Shown one piece after another: positions 3,640-24,451 of a stretch of DNA of 25,943 bases. The position numbers and the translations under genes are program-made. Numbering within the stretch: position 1 is the first letter of the stretch; the number at the start of each line of letters is the position of its first letter. The notes under the pieces are model-generated. The model made no database searches. It was not told the DNA's origin and saw only the letters and a program-made list of their open reading frames with translations. Source of the DNA: a virus; the IMG/VR virus record IMGVR_UViG_3300042937_000402, positions 1 to 25,943 of that record; one strand, given 5' to 3'.

Positions 3640-4086
3640 TTACGGACGAACGATGCGGAATTGATTTTCAATCGCAACCGGCCTGCAATCAAGGTGCAAC
3701 CATGTAGGCGTAAAATTCACATCTTCGATTGTGGTTAGTCCGGCGGCTTTGAACTCTTCAAAGTTGGCGTTAATAATTGCAAGCAAGTCGGCAGGTTTGC
3801 GGCCTGCTGATTTTACGTCGGCAGCGCACCCGCGCCGATGCTGTGAAAACATAGCGCCTGTTTTGTCCGACATTGACCGGAAACCGGACGACTTAAACGG
3901 TCCTCCGACGTGCCAATTATTGACGACGACCGGAGCGCCTAATTTCTCTCTGAGAAGGTCAAGAATGCGGACAATCTTAGGGTCAATTAACCAAGCGGCA
4001 TTAACTGAAAGTGCCTTGAATGTATTTTGGTCAACTAATTCCCGCACATCAAAGTACAGGCTGTTGTGTATCGGGTATTGTGGCAT
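3640..4086 (-). CDS. M15-type peptidase, probable endolysin
   Basis: The 148-aa protein carries the signature of the M15 family of D-Ala-type zinc peptidases. SQHRRGCAADVK (residues 81-92) supplies the zinc His83 and Asp90, and TWLHLDCR (128-135) supplies the second His/Asp pair. It should cut peptide cross-links in peptidoglycan to release progeny. There is no signal peptide, so exit to the periplasm would depend on a holin. The frame extends upstream to 4170, but that extension runs through a terminator hairpin (4108-4137), so MPQYPIHN at 4086 is the start. It is the last gene of the lysis block and is followed by two terminators. Confidence 0.9.
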   Translation of the reverse strand: MPQYPIHNSLYFDVRELVDQNTFKALSVNAAWLIDPKIVRILDLLREKLGAPVVVNNWHVGGPFKSSGFRSMSDKTGAMFSQHRRGCAADVKSAGRKPADLLAIINANFEEFKAAGLTTIEDVNFTPTWLHLDCRPVAIENQFRIVRP

Positions 4087-4107
4087 GGTGTTGTTTTTAT
4101 GATGAAT

Positions 4108-4137
4108 AAAAAAGCCGCCCGCGCTGATGCGGACGGC
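4108..4137 (-). terminator. Terminator between holin-like gene and endolysin
   Basis: On the minus strand GCCGUCCGC pairs with GCGGGCGGC through 9 bp around a 6-nt loop, followed at once by TTTTTTATT. It lies 34 bp after the holin stop and about 20 bp before the endolysin ATG, leaving no space for a separate promoter. It may act as an attenuator. Confidence 0.85.
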
Positions 4138-4170
4138 CTGATTGCATCCCACCGCAATCGCATGAAGCAA

Positions 4171-4650
4171 CTAACCTTGTGTGTTGTCCGGTACCGTGTC
4201 CGGTATCTCTTGCCTGCTCTTAAAATACTTAATCAGCGTATTGAAGAGCGGCACGCCAATCATCGTTACAAGTACGCCCCAATCTTTTGCATAAACAGCG
4301 GCAACTATCTGCTCCGCTGTTCCATCAGGAACTGTGAACCCGAATAACAGCGCCACACCGAGTAGTGCGGTGACCGCTGAAATCCAAAACGTGTTATTTG
4401 ACAGGATGACCTTCCCGTTGATTTTCCCGCCCTTCTTTTTAAAATTCCAAATTGGAAATACGATGGAAGAAACAAGCAACCCGGTGACGGCAAATATGCC
4501 ACCTGAATTGAGTGTCGTTTCAAAGTCGCCTGCGAGCGTTTGAGGATCGGACGGAAATTCAATACCCGTCGCTGCGAGTGCCGCCAAAATGACGTATGTG
4601 ATTGATGCGATGAATCCGGGTGACTTCGGGTCGAATTTTTGTTTAGCCAT
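4171..4650 (-). CDS. Holin-like membrane protein
   Basis: The 159-aa protein has four hydrophobic segments, roughly at residues 13-30, 50-68, 88-106 and 124-142. A basic loop (FKKKGGKINGK, 70-80) lies between the second and third, and the tail is charged (SRQEIPDTVPDNTQG). It belongs to no family I can name with certainty. Its size, topology and place next to an M15 endolysin and two spanin-like proteins make a holin the best reading. The start MAKQKFDPK at 4650 is chosen over the ATG at 4713 because it lies 1 bp after the preceding gene's stop. Confidence 0.7.
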   Translation of the reverse strand: MAKQKFDPKSPGFIASITYVILAALAATGIEFPSDPQTLAGDFETTLNSGGIFAVTGLLVSSIVFPIWNFKKKGGKINGKVILSNNTFWISAVTALLGVALLFGFTVPDGTAEQIVAAVYAKDWGVLVTMIGVPLFNTLIKYFKSRQEIPDTVPDNTQG

Positions 4651-4651
4651 T

Positions 4652-5002
4652 TTATTGAATGTTATGGCAGTCCGGCTGCCTGTTAAAAATGCCCTGAATT
4701 GTGTCCGGTGCAATATCCGGTTTAGCGTCCGGTATTGTGTCTGCTTTCATGTCCGCTTGTATTGTCTGAATCGTGTCCGTGTGTCCTGTACATTTGTCCG
4801 TATTGATGGACATTTTTAACCGGACAATTTCCGAATTTAACCGGACGCGCATACTATCAAGCTGTCCGCGTCCGGCCTGCAATTCATTATTGAATGAATC
4901 AATCTTATCCGGCGTTTGTCCGGCTTGTTGTCGGTACTTGCGCGTTTGGATTGTGCAGGTAGTGATGAATAGCGCGACGGCGAAAATGAAAATATACTTC
5001 AT
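4652..5002 (-). CDS. Small membrane-anchored protein, o-spanin-like candidate
   Basis: The 116-aa protein begins MKYIFIFAVALFITTC, a short hydrophobic segment ending in Cys16. This could be a poor lipobox (ITTC; Thr at -1 is unusual) or a simple anchor. A predicted coiled-coil stretch (residues about 35-70) follows. The C-terminus is rich in Asp, Thr, Ile and Pro, with repeats such as DTIQTIQADMKADTIP and KPDIAPDTIQG. A Pro-rich outer-membrane lipoprotein paired with a coiled-coil membrane protein is the layout of two-component spanins in Gram-negative phages. This assignment rests on layout only. Confidence 0.65.
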   Translation of the reverse strand: MKYIFIFAVALFITTCTIQTRKYRQQAGQTPDKIDSFNNELQAGRGQLDSMRVRLNSEIVRLKMSINTDKCTGHTDTIQTIQADMKADTIPDAKPDIAPDTIQGIFNRQPDCHNIQ

Positions 5003-5009
5003 GGTAGTA

Positions 5010-5333
5010 TCATTGTTGCTGTTTTATTTTCGCAATATCAAGTACAGTTTTTTGGAATAACTGTGCTTGTTCGGTTTTGTAACGGTCAAGTTCGCGCCGC
5101 GCCTCGTCTATTCGCGCTTCCTGTGCTTTCATCGCTTCATCACATTGTAGGCGCTGTTCTCTTAACTTCTGATCGCACGCATCTTCAATTCGCCGCACTT
5201 CCATCCACATGGCAACGATTGCAGCGAACGAAGCGGAAATAACATAGTACGGTAATGTCCGGCTGTTTGGTAGTTCTAACTGCATTGGTTTGGTTTTTGG
5301 TTTTGGTTTGTCCGTCCTGCTCCCGCCCGACAT
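5010..5333 (-). CDS. Membrane protein with coiled coil, i-spanin-like candidate
   Basis: The 107-aa protein has a basic N-terminus (DKPKPKTKP), one membrane segment at about residues 28-45 (YYVISASFAAIVAMWM) and a long charged coiled coil to the C-terminus (EVRRIEDACDQKLREQRLQ onwards). This is the topology of Rz-type inner-membrane spanins, which fuse the two membranes after wall degradation. The coding frame opens further up at 5405, overlapping the tail gene. A start at MQLELPNSR (5285), directly after an A/C-rich leader, is also possible. It stands 40 bp after the tail-tip gene. Confidence 0.65.
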   Translation of the reverse strand: MSGGSRTDKPKPKTKPMQLELPNSRTLPYYVISASFAAIVAMWMEVRRIEDACDQKLREQRLQCDEAMKAQEARIDEARRELDRYKTEQAQLFQKTVLDIAKIKQQQ

Positions 5334-5373
5334 AGGCCGGACGAGAGTGCAGGAACCGGAGGAAGTCTTTATG

Positions 5374-8300
5374 TTAGTCGCCGATGAACAGGAACCGCAA
5401 TGCAAACTGTGTTGATGCAGGTAAATTTGTAGCAGAGTTCAGTACAAATGCACCCCGATTGCTACTTGTAATGTAAAAATTATTCATCTGTGCGGCTGCG
5501 TTGGCGTTTGCAGCACCTGGAACAGGAACAATAAGTGATGTAAATCGAACGAGACGAAGAGTAATTTGAGCAACCATACTGCCGCTATTCGGAGATGTTC
5601 CGGTAGTAAATGTTAGTAGGGCCCAATTGCCGCCGCCGGTAAAGCTGTCAACTGTTGCGCCTGTTCCAGCGCCCATACCAAAAGTAATGTACGATGAATC
5701 CCATGATGTCTCCGTTGGTGAACCAAACGAATTTGCAGTGAGCAAACCGCTGGAATACGTCAAATCAGTAACGCCAACTATTGATGTTGCGCTGTTAAAA
5801 CGCAATAACCTACCTGCCGCCTCATTCGTAATACCCATTACTGTGTACAGTTGCGATGTTGTCAATTCAGTCACCGCGCCCGCGCCTGATGCCGACCTGC
5901 CCAAAACTGTCGGGCCTGTTATATTAGCCATCTTTGCGAGCGTAATAGTTCCATCTGCAATACCTGCCGCAACTATCTGCCCAAATCCTAAAACAGTACC
6001 TGACCTGCGAAGTACATGGCCATCAGTACTGGCCGGTATATCAATTACGGTTCCAATGCTATTTGCGCCCCTTCCCATTACCGATAGCGCCGCTCTGTTT
6101 GATATTTTAACTGAAGTAACAGCGCCGTTATCAATTGTCCACACCGTACCGCCCGAACTTACTGTAATATCGCCCTTGTCACCATCCGCAACACCACCGC
6201 CGCCGGCCTGCGGAGTTAATTGAACGAACAGTCCGGCATTGGCGGGAATGTCAAAGTTGGCTGTTGACGAATTGACTGAAATGGAAGTAGCGCCTACTGA
6301 TGGTGCCGACGCGACTGTGAAAGTCTGAAATTGCCCCGTAACCGGATTGACTAACTTAACCTTGTCGCCCGCTGAAAACTCATTGCCCGCAAGCGCCGTA
6401 CCGACTGCGATACTTGTAACCGTTGCGCCTTTGGTGATTGCCGTTGAAAGCGAATTGAACGAAAGCGGAGTTAAAATTGCCCCCGGCGGATTGGCAACTA
6501 ATCCCTGATTACCGCCTGTTGTGGGCGCTGTGGTTGTCGGGTTAATGGTTGTCGGGTTACTTGTGCCACCTGTGAGTATCTTAACCTTTACAGGTGTTTT
6601 TACGTTGCTGTTTCCGAATGTCAGGTTTACCCAACTTCCCTCAATGATATTTTCCGTGACGTGCCAAAGTACGCGCATATCTAACCAATATAGACTGTCA
6701 GATGTGCTAATTAATTTGCGTACCTGATTGCACCCATTGCCGTATAGACTACCATTCATGCGCTTCTTAACCCGTAACCGCGCATCCAGTACGCGCTTAG
6801 CCATCAGTGAACCAATCGAAAGTGACCGGCTCCCCGAACCTTGCCCCCATTGACTTAATGCTGTTGTTCCGGCTGAATTAATCAGGGAACCGGAATAGTT
6901 TATAGAACCGGAACCCAATCTGCCTGTCCGCTCCCAAACGTCCGTACCACCATCAAGGTTTTCCGACTCATGCAGTACCTCATCTTCTTGAACGTCGGGT
7001 GTTCCCAAGTCGTACAACTCTAACCACATACCGCCTGTGTTCCACGATATTGTAAACTCACTTTCGTCAATACCTGTGCCGTCCGGCGCTTTCAGTTCGA
7101 TTGAACTAACTGAAATACTGTTTAGTTCGCCATCTGCGACAAGTGCAGGGGTAATGAAGTCGAATGCCTGAATGTAGTTAATTGTCTGACCTGATGCAGG
7201 AACTGTCTGTCCGCCCGCCATCAATATGAATACATCCGTGTTGTCGTTAGTCCATCCTGCAAGGTTGTAGAAGAACGAAAAGTTGTTAACTGTAACGGTA
7301 CGCTCCAGGTACTTCGTTCCTATCTTGAGCGTAATGTTAATTTGCGGAATGATTATATCTGTAGCATTGCCTGTATAACTGTCGTTCCTGATGGTAATGA
7401 AGAACGTGCCGCGCATCCGCATAGTTGCAGCGCCTGAGTTACTGCTAATAGTCTGATTGAAGTTGAACGTAGATGTTCCGTTAATCAGGATATTTTGCCA
7501 ATAGTTGCGGCGAAGCTTAGCTTCATACGTTAATTGTGTCTTGCTGTATTGTGACAGGAAGTCGTATGTGACATACGTCAACTTTGCCGCGTTCGTTTTT
7601 GTTTGGTCAACTGTCAGCGTGCCTGAATAAGCGCCGTATGTTTTTTGTGTGCCATCCTTCTTATACGTCCGCCAATTGTATGTACTATTCACGCGGTAAT
7701 CAACTTGTTCGATGATATACCGCGCATCCCTCATGCGAATGCGAGCGCCGAAAGCAAGGCAGATGTACTTCAGTACGTCATAACAGGAAAGTACATCTTT
7801 GTCAGGCCCTCCTTTCGTCTTGAAATCATAGAATGCTGAATGATCGACGTATGACAGATACATCGGGTCATTCGCGTCTGATGAAGTCATTGATGCCTCC
7901 CACCAGTCGAGCGAAGTTTCAAGGAACGCGTCATCAGTTGCCCAAAACGTATTGATATGCGATAACTTACCGAGTGCAGTTACCGCGTGCTTTGTTAGTC
8001 TTTCGCGTCCGAAATACAGTGCCCCGTCATTGTAGTACGGTATCTTTTTCAGAAGAGCAAGGCCGCAAACGGCAGTTAGGGTATAATTGAAAACCGGGCC
8101 TTCGTCGGTTTCATCACCAAGCGCATCGCCTGTAATAACACCCCGCCAAATCTTAACCCCCGCTTGTGTTGCTATCTCAAGTGCAAACCTGCCTTCTTTC
8201 GATGTTCGCAGGTCTGAAAGAAACGTCATTACCGTGGTTTCGGCGACGTTGACAAGTATTTCAATCGTCGCGATTGAACCCATGACCGGACTATGAATAT

Positions 8301-13392: not shown

Positions 13393-13725
13393 TTACGCTT
13401 GTTTCTGTGTAAAAATTAAAACTGATGCCTTGTAGTCCGGTTTCTGAAAATACAGGATGTCGTAATATTCAGAATCGAACACAATACGCATTTTTTCGGT
13501 TAGCGTGTCACGGTACGCAATGTCGAAAATGACGGCAGTCTGTGATATTGGTTGGTCATTCATCATATCTTCCTTGCTGCCGCCTTGACGATACGATACC
13601 TTAGCCCACACTTCGCAGTTCTTTTCCCACGTTATCAGTTCCTGACCGAATGCGCCCCTGGTGGAAACTGGTTGTTCAACCCTGATGCGCCATCTGCGTT
13701 CTCCGATTTGCGTTTGCTTCGCCAT
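13393..13725 (-). CDS. Head closure / head-tail adaptor protein
   Basis: The 110-aa beta-rich protein reads GERRWRIRVEQPVSTRGAFG, then WEKNCEVWAKVSYRQGG and YDILYFQKPDYK. This is the layout of SPP1 gp16-like head-tail joining proteins, which plug the connector and hold DNA in the head. The ATG at 13725 overlaps the stop of the connector gene as TAATG, so it is preferred. An ATG at 13734 would add three residues. Confidence 0.88.
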   Translation of the reverse strand: MAKQTQIGERRWRIRVEQPVSTRGAFGQELITWEKNCEVWAKVSYRQGGSKEDMMNDQPISQTAVIFDIAYRDTLTEKMRIVFDSEYYDILYFQKPDYKASVLIFTQKQA

Positions 13726-14327
13726 TATATCCACCGTTTTAGAGGCTGCAACAATACGTCTGACATTGACATGCCTTCTTCGCGGCTGTCTTCTCTATTC
13801 GTGTATGCCCGCGCAATTCGTGAAAGAATGCCTGCGGTGATATTTGGCGGCAATGATGACGGGCCGGAACCGTAACCGGCTGAATATGTCACAACCACAG
13901 CGTCCGGCCTGTTAGCCAAGTTGGTAGGCCATGAGTAATCCGGCTTTAGGGTGATGTTTGCGCCGCCGGATGAAGCGGTAAAATTCCATTCAGTTGATGC
14001 CCACGTTTGCAGCGTGTTGCCGTCGTCGTAATACTGAATTGATGTAATTGAATTGACAGGGCCAACACCCGACACAAACAGCGTATCGGTTGAATATTGC
14101 GGGAATCGGCTGTGGTGTTCAACTACTGTTTTATTCAGTAGTGCGCATTGATACTGTCTTTCAATTAGCGAACATTGCGCCTTGATCTGCATTATCAAAT
14201 ATTCGTCATCATGCCGAAGGTCATCCATGCGAAGTTGCATCCGCACCGCCTCTAACGATACGGGAAGTTCCGCACTTTCGGCGGTGATGGTATGACCCGT
14301 GTAATATCTCCCGTATCTGTATTCCAT
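13725..14327 (-). CDS. Head-tail connector, gp6-like
   Basis: The 200-aa protein has the pattern of gp6-type (adaptor) connectors. An N-terminal helical unit (LPVSLEAVRMQLRMDDLRHD, DEYLIMQIKAQCSLIERQYQ) is followed by a beta insert (VNSITSIQYYDDGNTLQTW), VVVTYSAGYG, and C-terminal helices (NITAGILSRIARAYTNRED) ending LLQPLKRWI. It binds the portal and forms the ring to which the head closure protein attaches. It follows the signal-peptide genes by one base, so those sit unusually between capsid and connector. Confidence 0.9.
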   Translation of the reverse strand: MEYRYGRYYTGHTITAESAELPVSLEAVRMQLRMDDLRHDDEYLIMQIKAQCSLIERQYQCALLNKTVVEHHSRFPQYSTDTLFVSGVGPVNSITSIQYYDDGNTLQTWASTEWNFTASSGGANITLKPDYSWPTNLANRPDAVVVTYSAGYGSGPSSLPPNITAGILSRIARAYTNREDSREEGMSMSDVLLQPLKRWI

Positions 14328-14328
14328 G

Positions 14329-14940
14329 TTACTTGTTGGCTGTTGTCTGCTTAATTAACCACCGCTTACCATCGGCCTGAATATACCGGTCGCCTGAAAT
14401 CCTGAAAAAGTCGGTGAATTTCCCGCTTGTCGGATAATTATTCAGCCTGATGACGGTATTGGCAATTGGTTGCGCCACACGCAGCGTTCCTGTACCTATA
14501 CGCCACCGATACGCGCCTGTGGCAATCTTGCTGATGACGATGGTCTGTTGCGTGTCGCCGCGCATATTCCATGTACCCAACCAAAGCGATTCGTTATCTG
14601 CTCTTAGGCTGTCAACAGGATTACGGCCTGTTAATGATTGTATGCGGTCTGATTCGCGAAATATGGCGGTGATGCGCTGTGAAAAATCGTATGTAGTTGC
14701 GATTGTTCCTGCGAACATTGATGCCCTGTCTGCAATGAAGTTTTTTCCGTTTTGATACAATTGCAGGCTGTCACCTGCTAATTGTGCGTCCTCCGCGTAT
14801 GCGCCATTGTCGTACACAATACGATGTATTTTGTAATATTTTCCTGCTGTGTTGCTGATGTATGTCGTATCAATTACGACCATTTGCGCCGAAAGTTGGA
14901 AGGCGAAAAATGCGATGAAAATTGAAAGAATATGTTTCAT
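14329..14940 (-). CDS. Secreted-type hypothetical protein in the head-neck block
   Basis: The 203-aa protein opens with a textbook Sec signal peptide: MKH, a hydrophobic core, LSA at residues 16-18 and Gln19. Cleavage after Ala18 is predicted, and Gln at +1 is characteristic of Bacteroidota exported proteins. The mature part is soluble and beta-rich (WLGTWNMRGDTQQTIVIS, YRWRIGTGTLRV, FTDFFRISGDRYI), which may be a barrel or lipocalin-like fold; I cannot name a family. It sits 11 bp after the fibre gene, which also has a signal peptide, and 1 bp before the connector gene. A fibre partner, chaperone or host-envelope factor are all possible. Confidence 0.75.
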   Translation of the reverse strand: MKHILSIFIAFFAFQLSAQMVVIDTTYISNTAGKYYKIHRIVYDNGAYAEDAQLAGDSLQLYQNGKNFIADRASMFAGTIATTYDFSQRITAIFRESDRIQSLTGRNPVDSLRADNESLWLGTWNMRGDTQQTIVISKIATGAYRWRIGTGTLRVAQPIANTVIRLNNYPTSGKFTDFFRISGDRYIQADGKRWLIKQTTANK

Positions 14941-14951
14941 GTTGTGATGTT

Positions 14952-17354
14952 TTAGTTGATAATGAAAAACCCGACCGACGTTACACCTGTAGCACCCGCA
15001 TCAAGGTTAATAGTGAATGAACCAGCAGCCGGAACCACGTTTTTTATTATCGCTGTTGCATCATTTGTGCGGATAGTTGCGAATACCAGTGAAGATGTGG
15101 TGCAAAGCGAATTAGTGACAGTTAGCGCCGTGGCTCCCGCCGCAAAGTTCACGTTGCCGGAAGGTGTGTTGATTGTTTGGTTTCCGGTTGTGCCTGATAT
15201 GGCGTTTGCGAGGTAGGAAATCTTGCCGTTATTCTCAATTTTGTAAATGTCCGACGGCGTGCTGTTTTGGATAAGCAGCGCGTTTGTGCCGCTGGAGGTG
15301 TTGGAGCCGCGAACGTGAACAGTGGCGGACGGCGTAAAATCCCCGCCTATGTTTACCGTAGCATTCGCTCTAACCCCCATAGCTATGCCTACGCCAGCGG
15401 TAAGGCTCGTCGTAAAGTTAGCTATTATTTCCGCGCCTGACATACTTGCCCTGCCAGTACTGCCGTCAGATTTAAAGCCCTGAAATTCAATAGCCGGAAC
15501 AGTGGGCGATGTACTACCAACATTGCCTTGAAAAGTGAACGCCCTGGTGTTAGTACTTGTGAATCCTTGCAATACAAGCCCACCAGACGAAGAAAACGCC
15601 TGACCAACTGCGCCAATATATTCAGCACTTGCCCAAGGGGCAACGCCCGTAAACGGGATTGCTGTAGTTAACCCTGTAGAAAAAAAAGAGTGCGCAACGG
15701 TCACTCCCCTCCAGGCTGCTATCGTGCCAGGTGTTGAAGTGCCTACTCCAAGTCTTGAATTTGAATTATCCCAATTAAACCCAGTCCCTATATTCGTATT
15801 TCCATTATCCAGCACTTTTACAAGTTCGGTATCTCCGCTATTAGTCAGCCTTGTGTTAACAGTGGTTAATGTTCCGCTACCCTTTACATTCAGCCTGCCC
15901 GTCGGCGAACTCGGAGCGCCGATATTTAACCGAACGTTAGAATTATCCCACGCCAAATTAGCCGAAGCATCGAACGAACCCGCAGGCGTAGAGTTAAACT
16001 GAACCTGCCCCGCGCTGCCCGCTGGAGTGCCGCCACCGCCGCCACCTGTCGCGCTCACAGTCGCCACACCGTTACTTTTACTCACCGTCACGTTCGTACC
16101 TGCAACTACATCAACAATTGGCAGCGTGACAGACGATGCCGCCACACCATCATTCAATAGTGATGCCCTTAGCGTTTGGCCGGACAGGCTGAAGGTATCG
16201 AGGCGCTGTATTTCATTCGTTATTGATTGGTCTGTTGCCGTCAGCGTGAATGACGGATAACTACCCGTTACGCCTATACCCCCGCCGTTCGCGATTGAAA
16301 CCGTTTGGTCGGGTGCGCTGTTTGTGACCGTGTAGTTTCCCGTTGCGCTGCTGACTGATATTCCTGTGCCTGCTGTGACGTTTGTGACGGGAAGTGTGAC
16401 GGTTTTAGCAGGCTGTGCGTCTGATGATAGTGACGCAGATAGCGTTTGGCCTGACAGGGAAAATGTGTCTATTGTTTGCAGTTCGTTCGTTGCGCTTTGG
16501 TCTGCGACCGTTGCGGCCTGCCAACGTGTATTGGTGGTATTGTAGGTTAATACCTGTCCGTTTGTCGGTGATGGTACATACACGTCATGCAGTTCGCCTA
16601 ATTCGTAACCGTTTTGGATATGCACGGATATTTCACCGCTTCCGGCATTGCTTTTTACACAATATCCGATTAAAACCAAATGATCGGGCGCTGTGGTTTT
16701 TGTTTGCGTTATGCCTCCTTCCGTTGTCGGTGATAGGTACAGCGCCGCGCCTTCGGTGAATGCGGATGTGTTGATACCTGAAATAAGACCTTCGGCAACG
16801 CAGTAACCTTCGCCGTTATTTGCAACCGTTTCATCAATCACGCCAAGCGTATTCGCGCTTAGGCTATCTTGCGACGCGAGCGCCTTTTTTACGGCTACCC
16901 TGTTACCTTGAGCGCCTGAAACGTACACAACTTCACCCTTATTGATTGTGCCGCCGGACTTGTTAACTACGATGAATTTTAAACGTAGTGCATCTGTGGA
17001 GCCGCCACCACCGCCAACACTCTGCCACGCGGAACCATTCCAATAATACAGCTGATTGGCAGCATTGACGACAAAGTGTGATTGGTGCGCTGTTGGTGTG
17101 TAGGCAGGTGGTACGGAACCGGAAATATTTGTCAGTCGGTAACCTGCTGAAATCCATGAAGCGCCGGAAAGGCGGTTTGGATTTACATACCATTCACCTG
17201 TGACCGTATCAATTGCCACCACATTGCCGGAAGCGCCGGGCGTGAATGTAGGCGCTCCAATGGTTTGCGTGATGCCGCCTGAACGGTATATATTGTTCTG
17301 AGCGAACGCAAAGGAACTGAAAAGAATGAAGAAAAGTAAAAGCCTCCGTTTCAT
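14952..17354 (-). CDS. Large fibre-like protein with Sec signal peptide
   Basis: The 800-aa protein begins MKRRLLLFFILFSSFAFA-QN, a clear signal peptide with cleavage predicted before Gln19. A Gly run (about 115) leads to a domain with NKSGGTINKGEVVYVSGAQG. Two related repeats follow, at about 283-345 and 374-436: DQSATNELQTIDTFSLSGQT and DQSITNEIQRLDTFSLSGQT. After a second Gly run come WDNSNVRLNIG and WDNSNSRLGVGTSTPG, motifs common in Bacteroidota surface and fibre proteins. The C-terminus is hydrophobic and beta-rich (VGFFIIN). No S74 chaperone domain is seen. It could be a head or neck fibre, or an exported adhesin. Export would be odd for a virion part assembled in the cytoplasm. Confidence 0.85.
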   Translation of the reverse strand: MKRRLLLFFILFSSFAFAQNNIYRSGGITQTIGAPTFTPGASGNVVAIDTVTGEWYVNPNRLSGASWISAGYRLTNISGSVPPAYTPTAHQSHFVVNAANQLYYWNGSAWQSVGGGGGSTDALRLKFIVVNKSGGTINKGEVVYVSGAQGNRVAVKKALASQDSLSANTLGVIDETVANNGEGYCVAEGLISGINTSAFTEGAALYLSPTTEGGITQTKTTAPDHLVLIGYCVKSNAGSGEISVHIQNGYELGELHDVYVPSPTNGQVLTYNTTNTRWQAATVADQSATNELQTIDTFSLSGQTLSASLSSDAQPAKTVTLPVTNVTAGTGISVSSATGNYTVTNSAPDQTVSIANGGGIGVTGSYPSFTLTATDQSITNEIQRLDTFSLSGQTLRASLLNDGVAASSVTLPIVDVVAGTNVTVSKSNGVATVSATGGGGGGTPAGSAGQVQFNSTPAGSFDASANLAWDNSNVRLNIGAPSSPTGRLNVKGSGTLTTVNTRLTNSGDTELVKVLDNGNTNIGTGFNWDNSNSRLGVGTSTPGTIAAWRGVTVAHSFFSTGLTTAIPFTGVAPWASAEYIGAVGQAFSSSGGLVLQGFTSTNTRAFTFQGNVGSTSPTVPAIEFQGFKSDGSTGRASMSGAEIIANFTTSLTAGVGIAMGVRANATVNIGGDFTPSATVHVRGSNTSSGTNALLIQNSTPSDIYKIENNGKISYLANAISGTTGNQTINTPSGNVNFAAGATALTVTNSLCTTSSLVFATIRTNDATAIIKNVVPAAGSFTINLDAGATGVTSVGFFIIN

Positions 17355-17362
17355 GGTGTGTG

Positions 17363-17665
17363 TTATTGTAGTCGTTTTAGCACCCCTCCAGGGAGTGCAA
17401 CGTGATTTGCCGATGTTATGTAGAAATCACCGACCGTTAGGCCGCCTGTGACTGCTGATTCATCGCTGTCGTATTGCGGCAACGTATGGCTGTAATTATT
17501 CAGGAATTGCGCCAAAGTTCGCCATGACGTGTGAAAGTCAACTGATGAATCCTTCACGATTATCTGTCCGGCTGTACCGCCTTCAGGCACTCCCGCGCCG
17601 GGCTGACTGACCGGAAATTGAACGGTAATATTTGCGGGCGATAATGTTACTTGAATATCTGACAT
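17363..17665 (-). CDS. Small fibre adaptor-like protein
   Basis: The 100-aa protein starts MSDIQVTLSPANITVQFPVS and has a Gly/Pro hinge with PEGGTAGQIIVKDSSVDFHT, a pattern frequent at the N-terminus of phage fibres. The C-terminal half reads ESAVTGGLTVGDFYITSAN and ends PGGVLKRLQ, a small fibre domain I have seen across phage tail proteins. There is no signal peptide. Its start overlaps the upstream stop as TAATG. It probably links the beta-sandwich protein (17665-18045) to the large fibre. Confidence 0.65.
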   Translation of the reverse strand: MSDIQVTLSPANITVQFPVSQPGAGVPEGGTAGQIIVKDSSVDFHTSWRTLAQFLNNYSHTLPQYDSDESAVTGGLTVGDFYITSANHVALPGGVLKRLQ

Positions 17666-18045
17666 TATGCAGTTATTTTGTCAATTAACGTGATATGCCC
17701 GCGAAAGAACACATATACTACGCCTGTGGAAAGTGTAACTTTCAAGTCCATCGAAAGTACGTTGTCTAAGGGCAGAACGCTTGTACCAACCGCTTCCGGG
17801 CTAATTGTCATTATCCCGGAAGCTGCGTTAGTCAGTACAATGCCTTGTCCTGTTGTAGTCGAAAGTGTCATCAGCACAGTACCGGACGCGTTTTTAATCT
17901 GCATTGATGCGGATGCACCTGTCAGGTTAATTGCTGTTCCGGTTGAATCTACGGCGGTCACGGTGAAAGGTATTGTCCGCGAACGATACCACTTCATTGC
18001 CACGTAACCGGGGCGTAAATCTAATTCCTGTGCGTCATTGGTCAT
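17665..18045 (-). CDS. Beta-sandwich fibre/baseplate-type anchor protein
   Basis: The 126-aa protein has the sequence TIPFTVTAVDSTGTAINLTG, then ASMQIKNASGTVLMTLSTT, GIMTISPEA and a closing VVYVFFRGHITLIDKITA. This Ig-like beta-sandwich pattern is common in phage proteins that anchor fibres, including BppU-like N-terminal domains. No signal peptide is present. Its ATG overlaps the stop of the preceding gene (ATGA), indicating coupled translation. In this position it may attach fibres to the capsid or neck. Confidence 0.65.
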   Translation of the reverse strand: MTNDAQELDLRPGYVAMKWYRSRTIPFTVTAVDSTGTAINLTGASASMQIKNASGTVLMTLSTTTGQGIVLTNAASGIMTISPEAVGTSVLPLDNVLSMDLKVTLSTGVVYVFFRGHITLIDKITA

Positions 18046-18247: not shown

Positions 18248-19474
18248 CTAAGATGCCGCTGTAATCAGGTGCTTGATTGCGGATGTATTGACGCATTCGC
18301 CGTCGAATCTCATCCATGCCTGCCAACCAACAACGCCATCCATTGCAAACAGTTCGTCGAGGCGCTTCACCTGCATACCGCCGGAAATGCGGATGTAGTA
18401 TTTGCTGAAGTCGCCGGCGAGAATCAGTTTTGAGGATGCGTTGATGGATGAATCCATATCTTGGTTAATCCAGTAGCGCGTTCCGTCAATAGTGTCCGGC
18501 GCTCCTTGAACGTATGAAGGCAACCACAACGGACGGTTCTGACTGTCAACCAGTTTTTTAACAGCCAGCAGAACAGCGTCGTTCATCATAAATCCGAACT
18601 TTTGAGAACGACGGTATGCCGGTTCGATGCTGTGCTTCAGATCAAGCAATTCAAGGTAGGTGAAGGCAGTTGCGGAAGCGGCTGTTTTACCGAGCGTCGA
18701 GGCCGTTACTACACCGTTAGGCGTAGCAGAGCCATTGCCGATGGTGCATTTGTTGTTGATTGAACGGCCAAAGCGAGCGCCGAACTGTTCCATGAACCAC
18801 GCTTCAAGTTGGTAATCGTTGTCCTGAAGAATCTCATAAGATTCTTTTACAACCGTGCCAAACTTGTAAGCATCCATCTGCACCTGTGAGAAAGTGAAGT
18901 CCTGAACCGTGAATGTAGATGCTTCGCCAACCTGCACAGCGATGGTTGATGTGTCGTCGTTCACAGCGTAATACTGTGACGCTCCGGTCGGGCTGCGTTT
19001 GATGGTTGCGGCTTCGTAAATACCCGAATAGTCCTTCAGGTATGATTCAATGCCGGGCATCCATTCATCAGGAACCAAATAACCGCCGAGGCTGTCCGTT
19101 CCGACGATTTGCGTGTTTGTTCCGCGCTTTTCAATGAGTGCGCGTTGCTCCTTGTCGAGATCGCGAACACCTGAACGCATTACCTGCATGAAGGCGCTGC
19201 GATATGCGTTTTCTTCGCCTTTGTCGGCATTCGGATTGACATTTTCGCGTCCGGCGAAGTGCTGTGCGGCTGCGCGGGCTTCAAGTTGTTCAGCCTTTTC
19301 GTTCGCTTGAATGGTGGCGGTCAATGCGGCTTCATCAGCCTCCATTTTAGACCACGTTTGATTTTCTTCAGCGGACATTGCGCGGCCTTCTTTGGCGGCA
19401 TTCAGCGCAATGGATTTCATCTGTTCGACTATCCGCGCCCGTGAATCGTAGAGTGACTGGATTCCAGTAACCAT
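18248..19474 (-). CDS. HK97-fold major capsid protein
   Basis: The 408-aa protein has an N-terminal helical delta/scaffold region of about 110 residues (LYDSRARIVEQMKSIALNAA, charged coiled coil). The HK97-type core follows: GTDSLGGYLVPDEWMPGIE, QVQMDAYKFGTVVKESYEI, GARFGRSINNKCTIGNG and the C-terminal GWQAWMRFDGECVNTSAIKH. The delta region is normally removed by the prohead protease encoded just upstream. It forms the icosahedral shell. An A-rich leader (AAAAATAAATCAAC) precedes the ATG, consistent with high expression in Bacteroidota. Confidence 0.95.
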   Translation of the reverse strand: MVTGIQSLYDSRARIVEQMKSIALNAAKEGRAMSAEENQTWSKMEADEAALTATIQANEKAEQLEARAAAQHFAGRENVNPNADKGEENAYRSAFMQVMRSGVRDLDKEQRALIEKRGTNTQIVGTDSLGGYLVPDEWMPGIESYLKDYSGIYEAATIKRSPTGASQYYAVNDDTSTIAVQVGEASTFTVQDFTFSQVQMDAYKFGTVVKESYEILQDNDYQLEAWFMEQFGARFGRSINNKCTIGNGSATPNGVVTASTLGKTAASATAFTYLELLDLKHSIEPAYRRSQKFGFMMNDAVLLAVKKLVDSQNRPLWLPSYVQGAPDTIDGTRYWINQDMDSSINASSKLILAGDFSKYYIRISGGMQVKRLDELFAMDGVVGWQAWMRFDGECVNTSAIKHLITAAS

Positions 19475-20371: not shown

Positions 20372-21632
20372 TTGCGTCTGTGGAGTTATCCGGCGCTACG
20401 TCCGGCGTGATATTGTTCATTGCAGGGTTGTAGATTGTATCTGCGTCTGCAATTGGATTCAGGTTTTCAAGTACGCGGATCTCGTTAGGTGTCATCCATC
20501 CGGGCGAACTGACAGAGCCAAGCGCACGCTGATAGTATTCCGCACGGCTTTGCGTGTCGCCCCTCAGCATTGCATCCACATTGAAACGGAAAAACAGCCG
20601 CATTTTTTCGTTCTCAAAAAGTAGCTTTCGGTCAAGTTCGTTTTCCCAATTCTTCAGGATAGGGCGAAGCGTGTCACGCACGAATTCAAGCGACTGATGC
20701 TCGATGTTGTTGTTGGTGGCACGGTCTAACAGTCCGCCCATGTGCATCGGAATCCGGTAAATCCTGAAAATGTCCTGAAGTGAAAGTTTCGCGGTTTCGA
20801 TGAACAGAGCATCCGCCGGTTTCATCATTAATGGCACGAATTCAAGGCCGCCGTCAAGGATAGGTGTTTTTCCGGCATTTTCGCGGCCGGTATATCGTGC
20901 TTGCCATGCCTGTGAAAGATTCTGCTGTTGATCGGGCGACAATTTACCTGGGTGCTTTATGTAGCCTGACATAAACGCGCCGTTCTTCCAAAGCGCCGCC
21001 TGCGTTTCAGTTGTGGCAATACCAAGTCCGATGTTTTCGCGGAATATACTGATAGGTGACTTTCCGACAAGTCCATCGGTTGACATCCCCTTTATGTGGA
21101 TAATGTCACGCGGTCTGACAGGCGTTTCACGTTCCCGCATTTGCCCGTTCACTTTGTAGTCATAAACTCTGTACCACAAATTACCGTTCAAATCGAGTTC
21201 AGGAATTACCCAGTTAGGATTTTCGATAATGCGGAGCGCTTTAGGCCTACGGTTGCCATCCCTGATGATGTCTGCATAGAAATTACCATGCAGGGCAAGG
21301 TGGACCATTGCAGTAGCGCGAAAATCGTAAGACGTGTAAAGGTCGTGCGGCTCCTGTGAAATCAGGTAGTTGCGAATGTCGCCGGTCAATTGCAGTATTT
21401 GGCCATTGTCAGACGTGTACAGGCCGACCGGAAGCGATGCAATTGATTCAGACAGGATTTTTGCACAGGTAAAAACTCCGGCGTGCGCTAAAGCGGTTTC
21501 ACCGTTCACTGCTACGCCTGATTTAGTCGGACGAGCGCCGAACCATCCCCATGACCATTCAGGCGTACCTAATAAGTTGGACCTTTGGTTTTTTGGGGTG
21601 AAAACAGCCTTGATGTTATCTAAGATACTCAT
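20337..21632 (-). CDS. Portal protein, HK97 type
   Basis: The 431-aa protein has the family pattern: ALAHAGVFTCAKILSESIAS, LPVGLY, LHGNFYADIIRDGNRRPKAL, DIIHIKGMSTDGLVGKSPIS, then TATLNP-like C-terminal segments (HMGGLLDRATNNNIEHQSLE, FRFNVDAMLRGD). It forms the dodecameric ring through which DNA enters the head. The start MSILDNIKAVF at 21632 is chosen; the frame extends to 21713 but that part overlaps a terminator hairpin. Its N-terminus follows a terminator by 68 bp. Confidence 0.95.
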   Translation of the reverse strand: MSILDNIKAVFTPKNQRSNLLGTPEWSWGWFGARPTKSGVAVNGETALAHAGVFTCAKILSESIASLPVGLYTSDNGQILQLTGDIRNYLISQEPHDLYTSYDFRATAMVHLALHGNFYADIIRDGNRRPKALRIIENPNWVIPELDLNGNLWYRVYDYKVNGQMRERETPVRPRDIIHIKGMSTDGLVGKSPISIFRENIGLGIATTETQAALWKNGAFMSGYIKHPGKLSPDQQQNLSQAWQARYTGRENAGKTPILDGGLEFVPLMMKPADALFIETAKLSLQDIFRIYRIPMHMGGLLDRATNNNIEHQSLEFVRDTLRPILKNWENELDRKLLFENEKMRLFFRFNVDAMLRGDTQSRAEYYQRALGSVSSPGWMTPNEIRVLENLNPIADADTIYNPAMNNITPDVAPDNSTDANATTGTAQTGE

Positions 21633-22775: not shown

Positions 22776-24451
22776 ACAAAGTAGATACCGCCTGAATAGG
22801 TTTCAACTGGATTCTTAATGTATTCACCGAGTGCGATGACAGACGCAATAATGCCGTCAATTTTCAGATTTAGGCTGTTTTTCTTCTTTCTGATTTTCAG
22901 GTTTTCATTTTGATCGTAGTACGGCTGAACATTTGACAACATCCACCGCATAATTGGATTCCCGCCGTGATTTATCATGCCCTGCTTTACAAGGCGCTCA
23001 AATTCCTTTGTCGGTGCTGACATATTCATGATTCCCTGTGCAAATTTGTCCATCGGGAACCCGTCAGCTTCAAGCCGCGCTACCGTCTGAAATGCGTTAT
23101 ACGGGTCGTAACCTATCGCCTGTATATCGTACTCGCCCCGTAATCGGTGCAGGTCTGCTATCAGGTAGTCATAATCCGTGACGTTGCCGGGTGTAATCGT
23201 TAGCAGTCCGCTGTTAATCCATCGCAACACATCAGGAAATTCGCGGCTCCGCATTTTCGCGGTTTCTTCAGGTATGTAGAAAAACGGTAGTAGTATATGC
23301 GGTTCGCCTTCATTTTCGGAAGGGAAAAGCAGAACGCACGCGGTAAAGTCAGACGTTGCGGCAAAGTCAATACCGGCGAAACACGCACGGCCTTTTAGCG
23401 CTTGTAAATCGTAACTGTTCGGGCATTTCTGCCAAACTTCGTCCTGTATCCACACCTCGGCAACACCACAGGGTATATTCAGATTCTTTGTCTTGAACTC
23501 AACTTCAGACCTGCCGCCTTCATTAACCGCTTTGGTGTATTCTGATTCCATAAACTCCCACGACGGGGTAATGCCGATTTGCGGATTTGCTTTAACCCAC
23601 GTTGAGCGGTCGTTCCAGTCGTCGCCTTCGTCAAGGGTGTAGATAACCCCGAAAAAAGTTTCGTCCGTTTTTAGGCCGCGCAAAATATCAATGCAGTTTT
23701 GGCGCAAATGGAACCAGGGCGATTCAAAGTTAAACCCTGAAGTTGTAATGATATACGAAAGCGGATTAGACCGCGCTCCTTGTCCTGTTTCAAGCACCTT
23801 CAGGACCTCATTAGTCGGGTGTGCATGAAATTCGTCAATGACGGCAATGTGCGGCGAAAGTCCGTCAAGCGTTCCGGCTTCGGCGCTCAGCGCCTCCATA
23901 AAACTATCTGTGCGACTGCTGATTATCCGGTGCGCTCTGATTTCAAGTTCATCCCTGATGACCTCGCTATCATTTCGAAGTTCGCGGGCCATCAACTTTG
24001 CGGCGTTGTACACAATCTTTGCCTGATGCCGTGTCGTTGCGGCGCTGAATATCTGTGCGCCATTTTCACCATCAATTAACAAACCGCCCAACATGATTGC
24101 AGCGGCTTCTTCTGTTTTTCCCTGCTTTCGTGCCACCTCTACGAATGCCCGCCGGAAGCGGCGACCCTTCCCGTCCGTCCGCTGCCATCCGAATATACAA
24201 GCCCACCGGAACGCCTGAAAATCCTGCACATTAAACCGTTGGCCCTTCCAATTGCCTGATGTGTGGCGAAGGATTGAAATAAAGCGCAACCATCGCTCCG
24301 CTTCGTCCTCATCGAAGTAGTATTGAAAATCCGGCGTATTCTGTCGCTTCAGGTCGTTCAATTGCCGCTGTACAGCCATGCGCACGTTTTCGCACACGGC
24401 AGCTTTACCGGATACGACGTTGTTCATGTATTGACTGTACAGTTCAATCAT
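22772..24451 (-). CDS. terL: Terminase large subunit, HK97 type
   Basis: The 559-aa protein has an ATPase and a nuclease half. The ATPase shows Walker A VARKQGKTE (residues 106-114), Walker B IAVIDEFHAH (202-211) and the coupling motif TTSG (236-239). The nuclease half begins with GIDFAATSDFTA, whose Asp362 is a predicted metal ligand, and ends with KIDGIIASVIALGEY, which holds a second Asp. It pumps and cuts concatemeric DNA. The start overlaps the small terminase stop (ATGA). The cos-type or pac-type mode is not decided by the protein alone. Confidence 0.96.
   Translation of the reverse strand: MIELYSQYMNNVVSGKAAVCENVRMAVQRQLNDLKRQNTPDFQYYFDEDEAERWLRFISILRHTSGNWKGQRFNVQDFQAFRWACIFGWQRTDGKGRRFRRAFVEVARKQGKTEEAAAIMLGGLLIDGENGAQIFSAATTRHQAKIVYNAAKLMARELRNDSEVIRDELEIRAHRIISSRTDSFMEALSAEAGTLDGLSPHIAVIDEFHAHPTNEVLKVLETGQGARSNPLSYIITTSGFNFESPWFHLRQNCIDILRGLKTDETFFGVIYTLDEGDDWNDRSTWVKANPQIGITPSWEFMESEYTKAVNEGGRSEVEFKTKNLNIPCGVAEVWIQDEVWQKCPNSYDLQALKGRACFAGIDFAATSDFTACVLLFPSENEGEPHILLPFFYIPEETAKMRSREFPDVLRWINSGLLTITPGNVTDYDYLIADLHRLRGEYDIQAIGYDPYNAFQTVARLEADGFPMDKFAQGIMNMSAPTKEFERLVKQGMINHGGNPIMRWMLSNVQPYYDQNENLKIRKKKNSLNLKIDGIIASVIALGEYIKNPVETYSGGIYFV

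Follow-up and report, generated by a model that had tools for sequence, protein, structure and literature searches.

The virus sequence analysed here, 25,943 bp in length (IMGVR_UViG_3300042937_000402) and called the window below, carries a siphophage gene set. Its late operon reads terminase, portal, protease, HK97-type major capsid protein (MCP), p94, p126, p100, FIB and p203, followed by the adaptor (Ad1), head closure (Hc1; PF05521), tail terminator (PF11367) and neck genes, and then by the tail tube (assigned by position), tape measure (PF20155), tail tip and lysis genes. The pair of interest, a fibre gene (FIB) and its neighbour p203, therefore stands in the order MCP - p94 - p126 - p100 - FIB - p203 - Ad1 - Hc1 (Table 1). 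We infer a Bacteroidota host, because the genes have A-rich leaders without Shine-Dalgarno sites and because of the Q-rule, by which Gln at +1 marks signal peptidase I substrates in Bacteroidetes (PMC5837995). Within the lysis region, a lipoprotein-like ORF (MKYIFIFAVALFITTC) lies beside a single-TM ORF at 4652-5405, and the two are probably a spanin pair, judging by position.

Table 1. Positions in the window of FIB, p203, their parts and neighbouring genes
Feature	Position	Strand	Remarks
Lysis genes	3640..5405	-	M15 peptidase, probable holin, lipoprotein-like and i-spanin-like ORFs
Tail-tip protein, 1025 aa	5374..8451	-	Assigned by position; own variable, leaderless C-terminal tip
Head-tail adaptor	13725..14327	-	phrog_442; downstream context
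p203, 203 aa, exported partner	14329..14940	-	Sec signal peptide
p203 signal peptide	14887..14940	-	MKHILSIFIAFFAFQLSA; cleavage predicted Ala18/Gln19; mature start QMVV
FIB, 800-aa fibre	14952..17354	-	Sec signal peptide; phage-fibre domains
FIB C-terminal tip	14955..15335	-	Ends VGFFIIN; several exchangeable tip types exist
FIB middle domain, residues 125-285	16500..16982	-	Also in leaderless phage fibres
FIB exported N-domain, residues 19-125	16980..17300	-	Found in exported fibres from several phage backbones; candidate for docking
FIB signal peptide	17301..17354	-	MKRRLLLFFILFSSFAFA; cleavage predicted Ala18/Gln19; mature start QNNIY
p100	17363..17665	-	Small, leaderless, directly upstream of FIB; retained in relatives of the window backbone
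p126	17665..18045	-	phrog_1084
Major capsid protein	18248..19474	-	PF05065; upstream context

Sec leaders and fibre architecture

An earlier note on this DNA had described a signal peptide ending in Ala18 and followed by Gln19 on both proteins, and the two minus-strand ORFs bear this out. Under a home-made leader rule (positive n-region, hydrophobic core, small residues at -3 and -1, Gln at +1), FIB and p203 were the only genes of the window to pass (2/34), and shuffled versions of their N-termini passed in about 1% of cases (203 and 204 of 20,000). Both N-termini also show the sequence features of Sec/SPI substrates under the Bacteroidetes Q-rule. With no alternative start codon upstream of residue 45, FIB cannot lose its leader through internal initiation in that stretch. 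p203 does have an in-frame ATG, at residue 20, but its relatives do not conserve that Met. A lipobox with Cys at +1, as in Llp/Cor-type exclusion lipoproteins, is absent from both proteins, which have Gln at that position, and no NCBIfam match to a T9SS C-terminal sorting domain was found at or near cut-off.

Homologues consistently without the leader, which the note had named as an argument against export, were looked for and not found. Among IMG/VR relatives a Q-rule leader is present in 17/17 distinct proteins with the FIB N-domain, and the leader rule is passed by 22 of 23 relatives of p203, the 23rd having a leader that ends AYT before Q (a 24th match, at the recombination scar in L139, was left out of this count). 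Members of the p203 family, which are 25-30% identical, all retain M1, K2 and Q19. The p203 leaders of the window and of L014 have 6/18 residues in common and 43% DNA identity, against 86% for the remainder of the gene, indicating a replaced leader sequence with preserved function. The N-terminal region differs in a third FIB type (L065/L067, G016/G017), yet this type too begins with a Q-rule leader. Judged by sequence, the leaders of FIB and p203 are not a product of chance, and Sec export of both proteins is well supported.

The fibre-type repeats reported for the 800-residue protein are present, with residues 372-434 resembling 288-350 (57% identity against a close relative). In its body and tip homology to phage fibres and its location in a late structural operon FIB has the marks of a tailed-phage fibre, and it departs from these proteins in one usual, though not strictly defining, trait, that of a cytoplasmic product without an export signal. 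No Peptidase_S74 (PF13884) intramolecular-chaperone domain was found in FIB. Both the middle domain and the tips of FIB recur in leaderless phage fibres. Such fibres, including those of L016 and L017 and the Pseudomonas phage Rollin tail fiber, have middle domains 42-54% identical to that of FIB, but differ from it in lacking the leader, the N-domain and p203. Some of them adjoin a p126-like gene (L016, G018), and the p126 homologue of L150 has an additional match to phrog_3304 (L-shaped tail fiber protein assembly). A maximum-likelihood tree of 69 middle domains splits the leader-bearing forms between two places, both enforced by branches with good support, and requires no fewer than two switches between presence and absence of the leader. 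Most simply, leader and fibre body were joined at least twice. We considered a Cys185/Cys232 disulfide as a feature of export; in the tree set every exported form has the pair (17/17), but so do 7 leaderless forms, and it is thus not tied to export.

The partner protein p203 had no match in Pfam, PHROGs or NCBIfam, and three queries found no relatives among 50,697 phage records. AlphaFold models were poor (mean pLDDT 47 for p203 and 51 for the N-terminal half of FIB); the low-confidence model of p203 consists of beta hairpins, helices and a beta domain. The O-glycosylation motif D[ST][AILVMT] occurs three times in p203 against 0.83 expected (p = 0.04, uncorrected) and is not enriched in FIB, and we did not rely on it as a sign of periplasmic O-glycosylation. 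We rejected the idea that p100 is a fibre N-terminus split off as a gene of its own: compared by profile with MSDV-type fibre N-termini, it gave a probability of 1.4%.

Linkage, position and exchange of the cassette

p203 adjoins FIB in 22/22 contigs with a complete leader-bearing FIB and downstream sequence, whereas p203 or the N-domain was found at 0/65 loci with leaderless fibres of the FIB middle-domain family (Fisher p ~4e-21, relatedness not corrected for). This linkage, and the exchange of the two genes as a unit, support the proposal that they are functional partners.

At least four phage backbones carry the cassette, which is found at two different places in the late operon. In the window clade it lies between p100 and the adaptor. 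In the sister phages (G001, G002, G011-G015) it lies between the tail-tip and lysis genes, the usual place of fibre genes, and p100 abuts the adaptor where that region is present in the contig. In L150 it comes after p126-p100, which follow the tail-tip gene; in another backbone (L151/L174 and L152-L154) it is upstream of the tape measure; and in G016/G017 it is carried by an unrelated, integrase-bearing phage. The placement of the pair inside a head-neck operon, as first described, holds for the window but not for its sister phages, and is specific to the window lineage. One sister genome, G001 (L043+L044; 39.9 kb, classed as linear in IMG/VR), has ends that overlap near-exactly over ~244 bp and is therefore probably a complete circular map of ~39.6 kb.

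Recombination has left traces in two contigs. L139 is a window-type genome in which the FIB end, p203 and a truncated caspase-like gene are foreign, and its scar at L139:1064-1537 fuses the truncated gene in frame to the end of the resident, window-type p203. A recombinant cassette at L005:302-3029 joins a window-type FIB N-half to a G001-type p203.

In G012-G017 a third cassette gene encodes a leaderless protein that neither Pfam nor PHROGs recognised. PDB profile matches (3bij, E=6e-16; 4afr, E=1e-8), together with His and Cys dyad motifs (THSGHG, DTC), give it the profile similarity and dyad of a metacaspase fold. Such caspase/metacaspase-fold genes lie directly downstream of p203 at L131:1187-1918, L135:2878-3606, L136:15796-16539 and L143:8658-9389, and their products may cleave FIB or p203 or have a host-directed role. 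The sister phages also encode a further exported Q-rule protein of 164-166 aa near an HNH gene (L043:7603-8097; G012 20949-21449 = L130:2549-3049), which had no BLAST match to p203. Another protein with a leader, 282 aa long (MKKIQILVFSLLCLALSMQAQTI), is encoded by the integrase-bearing phages at L135:10785-11633 (G016) and G017 23375-24223.

Fibres of cultured Cellulophaga phages

GenBank annotation of MS/MS proteomics lists phi10:1 gp091-gp094, phi19:1 gp101-gp104 and phi39:1 gp25-gp26 as virion proteins. These ten genes encode fibres, pectate lyases and structural proteins and lie between the tail and lysis genes. The leader rule is passed by 9/10 of these distal fibre/pectate-lyase genes, as against 0/27 core head and tail proteins detected by MS/MS (Fisher p = 8e-8). 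phi19:1 gp104 has a leader-like MRNIVLILLFFNISFSFG followed by K, without Gln at +1; for phi10:1, the predicted mature N-terminal peptides are QTVEGTVGSDGSLIPYNVSGGLDETAVDTK (gp094) and QTTDVVK (gp091). Like FIB, the Cellulophaga genes combine Sec leaders, mostly with Gln at +1, with a late-operon position, here near the lysis genes; unlike the FIB-p203 pair, they come from phages without a p203 or caspase homologue, and their leaders go unremarked in the records. Apart from one weak N-domain match they have no homology to FIB or p203, and since they are not close homologues they bear on the pair by analogy of kind only.

Not all Bacteroidota phage fibres bear a leader. The fibres of phi18:1 and phi12:1, encoded inside the head-neck cluster, are leaderless, which weighs against the export reading proposed below, and no clear leader-bearing fibre was detected by the leader rule in P2559Y, 6H or B40-8. 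The collagen-like fibre gp52 of phi18:1 resembles FIB in lying in the head-neck cluster, between Hc1 and a tail component, but has no leader; it has been detected in free virions (PMC13288928).

PHROGs files the pectate lyases of phi10:1 and phi39:1 as morons, while GenBank lists them as virion proteins. At L177:44100-47391 and L182:10140-12173 a leader and ~20 further residues are common to different fibre/pectate-lyase families (phrog_21199, phrog_27797), and the leader module thus seems to be exchanged among appendages.

Proposed export and attachment of FIB and p203

The assembly of tailed phages is taught as a cytoplasmic process. To account for signal peptides on a fibre and its neighbour, the earlier note had offered three readings: an adhesin or exclusion factor displayed on the host envelope, capture of a host secreted protein, and attachment of fibres outside the cytoplasm during release. 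The last of these is the best supported, and with modest confidence we suggest that Sec exports the fibres and that they join virions outside the cytoplasm, at about the time of lysis, because the MS/MS-positive virion fibres of three cultured Bacteroidota phages carry leaders and their core proteins do not.

FIB and p203 would be made late as Sec pre-proteins of virion-fibre components and exported to the periplasm, where signal peptidase I would cut between Ala18 and Gln19; Gln19, now N-terminal, would probably be converted to pyroglutamate, as the Q-rule suggests. The two proteins would fold there, probably assembling together, and dock on otherwise complete virions once lysis mixes the compartments. 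Docking could be through the conserved exported N-domain, p203 or both, and the mosaic body and tips of FIB would then bind host surfaces. p126 and p100 are possible virion-side acceptors, although both are also present where the cassette sits elsewhere. The MS/MS annotations of the Cellulophaga fibres favour a place in the virion for FIB; against this, such detection could reflect exported fibres that stuck to, or were co-purified with, virions. With a variable tip already present on the tail-tip protein, adsorption may not require FIB.

The main rival, which we consider unlikely but well worth weighing, is that FIB and p203 are exported to form a complex in the envelope or periplasm, produced in lysogens or at a late stage of infection and not part of the virion, that acts as a receptor cover or adhesin, with superinfection exclusion, blocked re-adsorption to debris or an altered host surface as its role. 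Conserved Sec leaders on a two-gene cassette that moves between two positions and at least four backbones are moron-like, the virion already has its variable tail tip, and Q-rule proteins of Porphyromonas gingivalis phages have been read as possible outer-membrane modifiers (PMC10367356). FIB is nonetheless a long modular fibre built of virion-fibre domains, without a lipobox or a detected T9SS signal domain, and leader-bearing fibres are MS/MS-positive in the virions of cultured phages. We also rejected a receptor-binding tip common to FIB and the tail-tip protein: the tips of FIB have no clear homology to the variable tip of the latter, and masking of the same receptor by FIB is therefore not supported.

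A dual role, with the exported fibre at first covering the host envelope and later being picked up by virions, so as to serve both exclusion and adsorption, fits all the sequence data, since late operon position and export allow both; it is a less simple account, and we think it improbable. We give far less credence still to a leader that is a relic or a hydrophobic anchor, with FIB and p203 assembled in the cytoplasm as ordinary tailed-phage fibres are, since leaders are kept in all relatives and swapped for others in some, Gln, relevant only after cleavage, is kept at +1, and both genes retain the leader together. Least credible of all is a captured host secreted-protein gene whose leader, kept without a phage export function, obeys the Q-rule of the host phylum (PMC5837995), as the body of FIB is nested among leaderless phage fibres and limited pattern searches of GTDB genome contigs found no relatives and no host or prophage copies.

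Lambda Lom, T5 Llp and similar phage-encoded proteins are exported to the envelope, as FIB and p203 would be, but are outer-membrane proteins or lipoproteins and not long modular fibres. In P. gingivalis phages, five genes of unknown function encode Q-rule proteins, which like FIB and p203 have Gln at +1 as substrates of signal peptidase I; unlike FIB, they are not described as fibres, and modification of the host outer membrane is their proposed role (PMC10367356). Our literature search, mostly outside subscription journals and preprints, found no description of leader-bearing virion fibres in tailed phages, and prior notice elsewhere is possible. The fibre is a known kind of gene; the export route, should it end in the virion, looks new.

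More broadly, we regard it as an even call whether many Bacteroidota tailed phages finish their virions outside the cytoplasm, with Sec-exported adhesion fibres and tailspikes that would be matured by the signal peptidase and glutaminyl cyclase of the host and dock at lysis, FIB-p203 being one such mobile cassette. The question of export and attachment is directly testable with the cultured Cellulophaga phages, and a Q-rule leader in a late operon offers an annotation handle for the fibres of Bacteroidota phages. Were fibres exported and joined to the virion after lysis, co-infecting phages could exchange host-range determinants in the lysate, and these determinants could be modified in the periplasm and could be missed or misfiled, as with the moron label given to pectate lyases in PHROGs.
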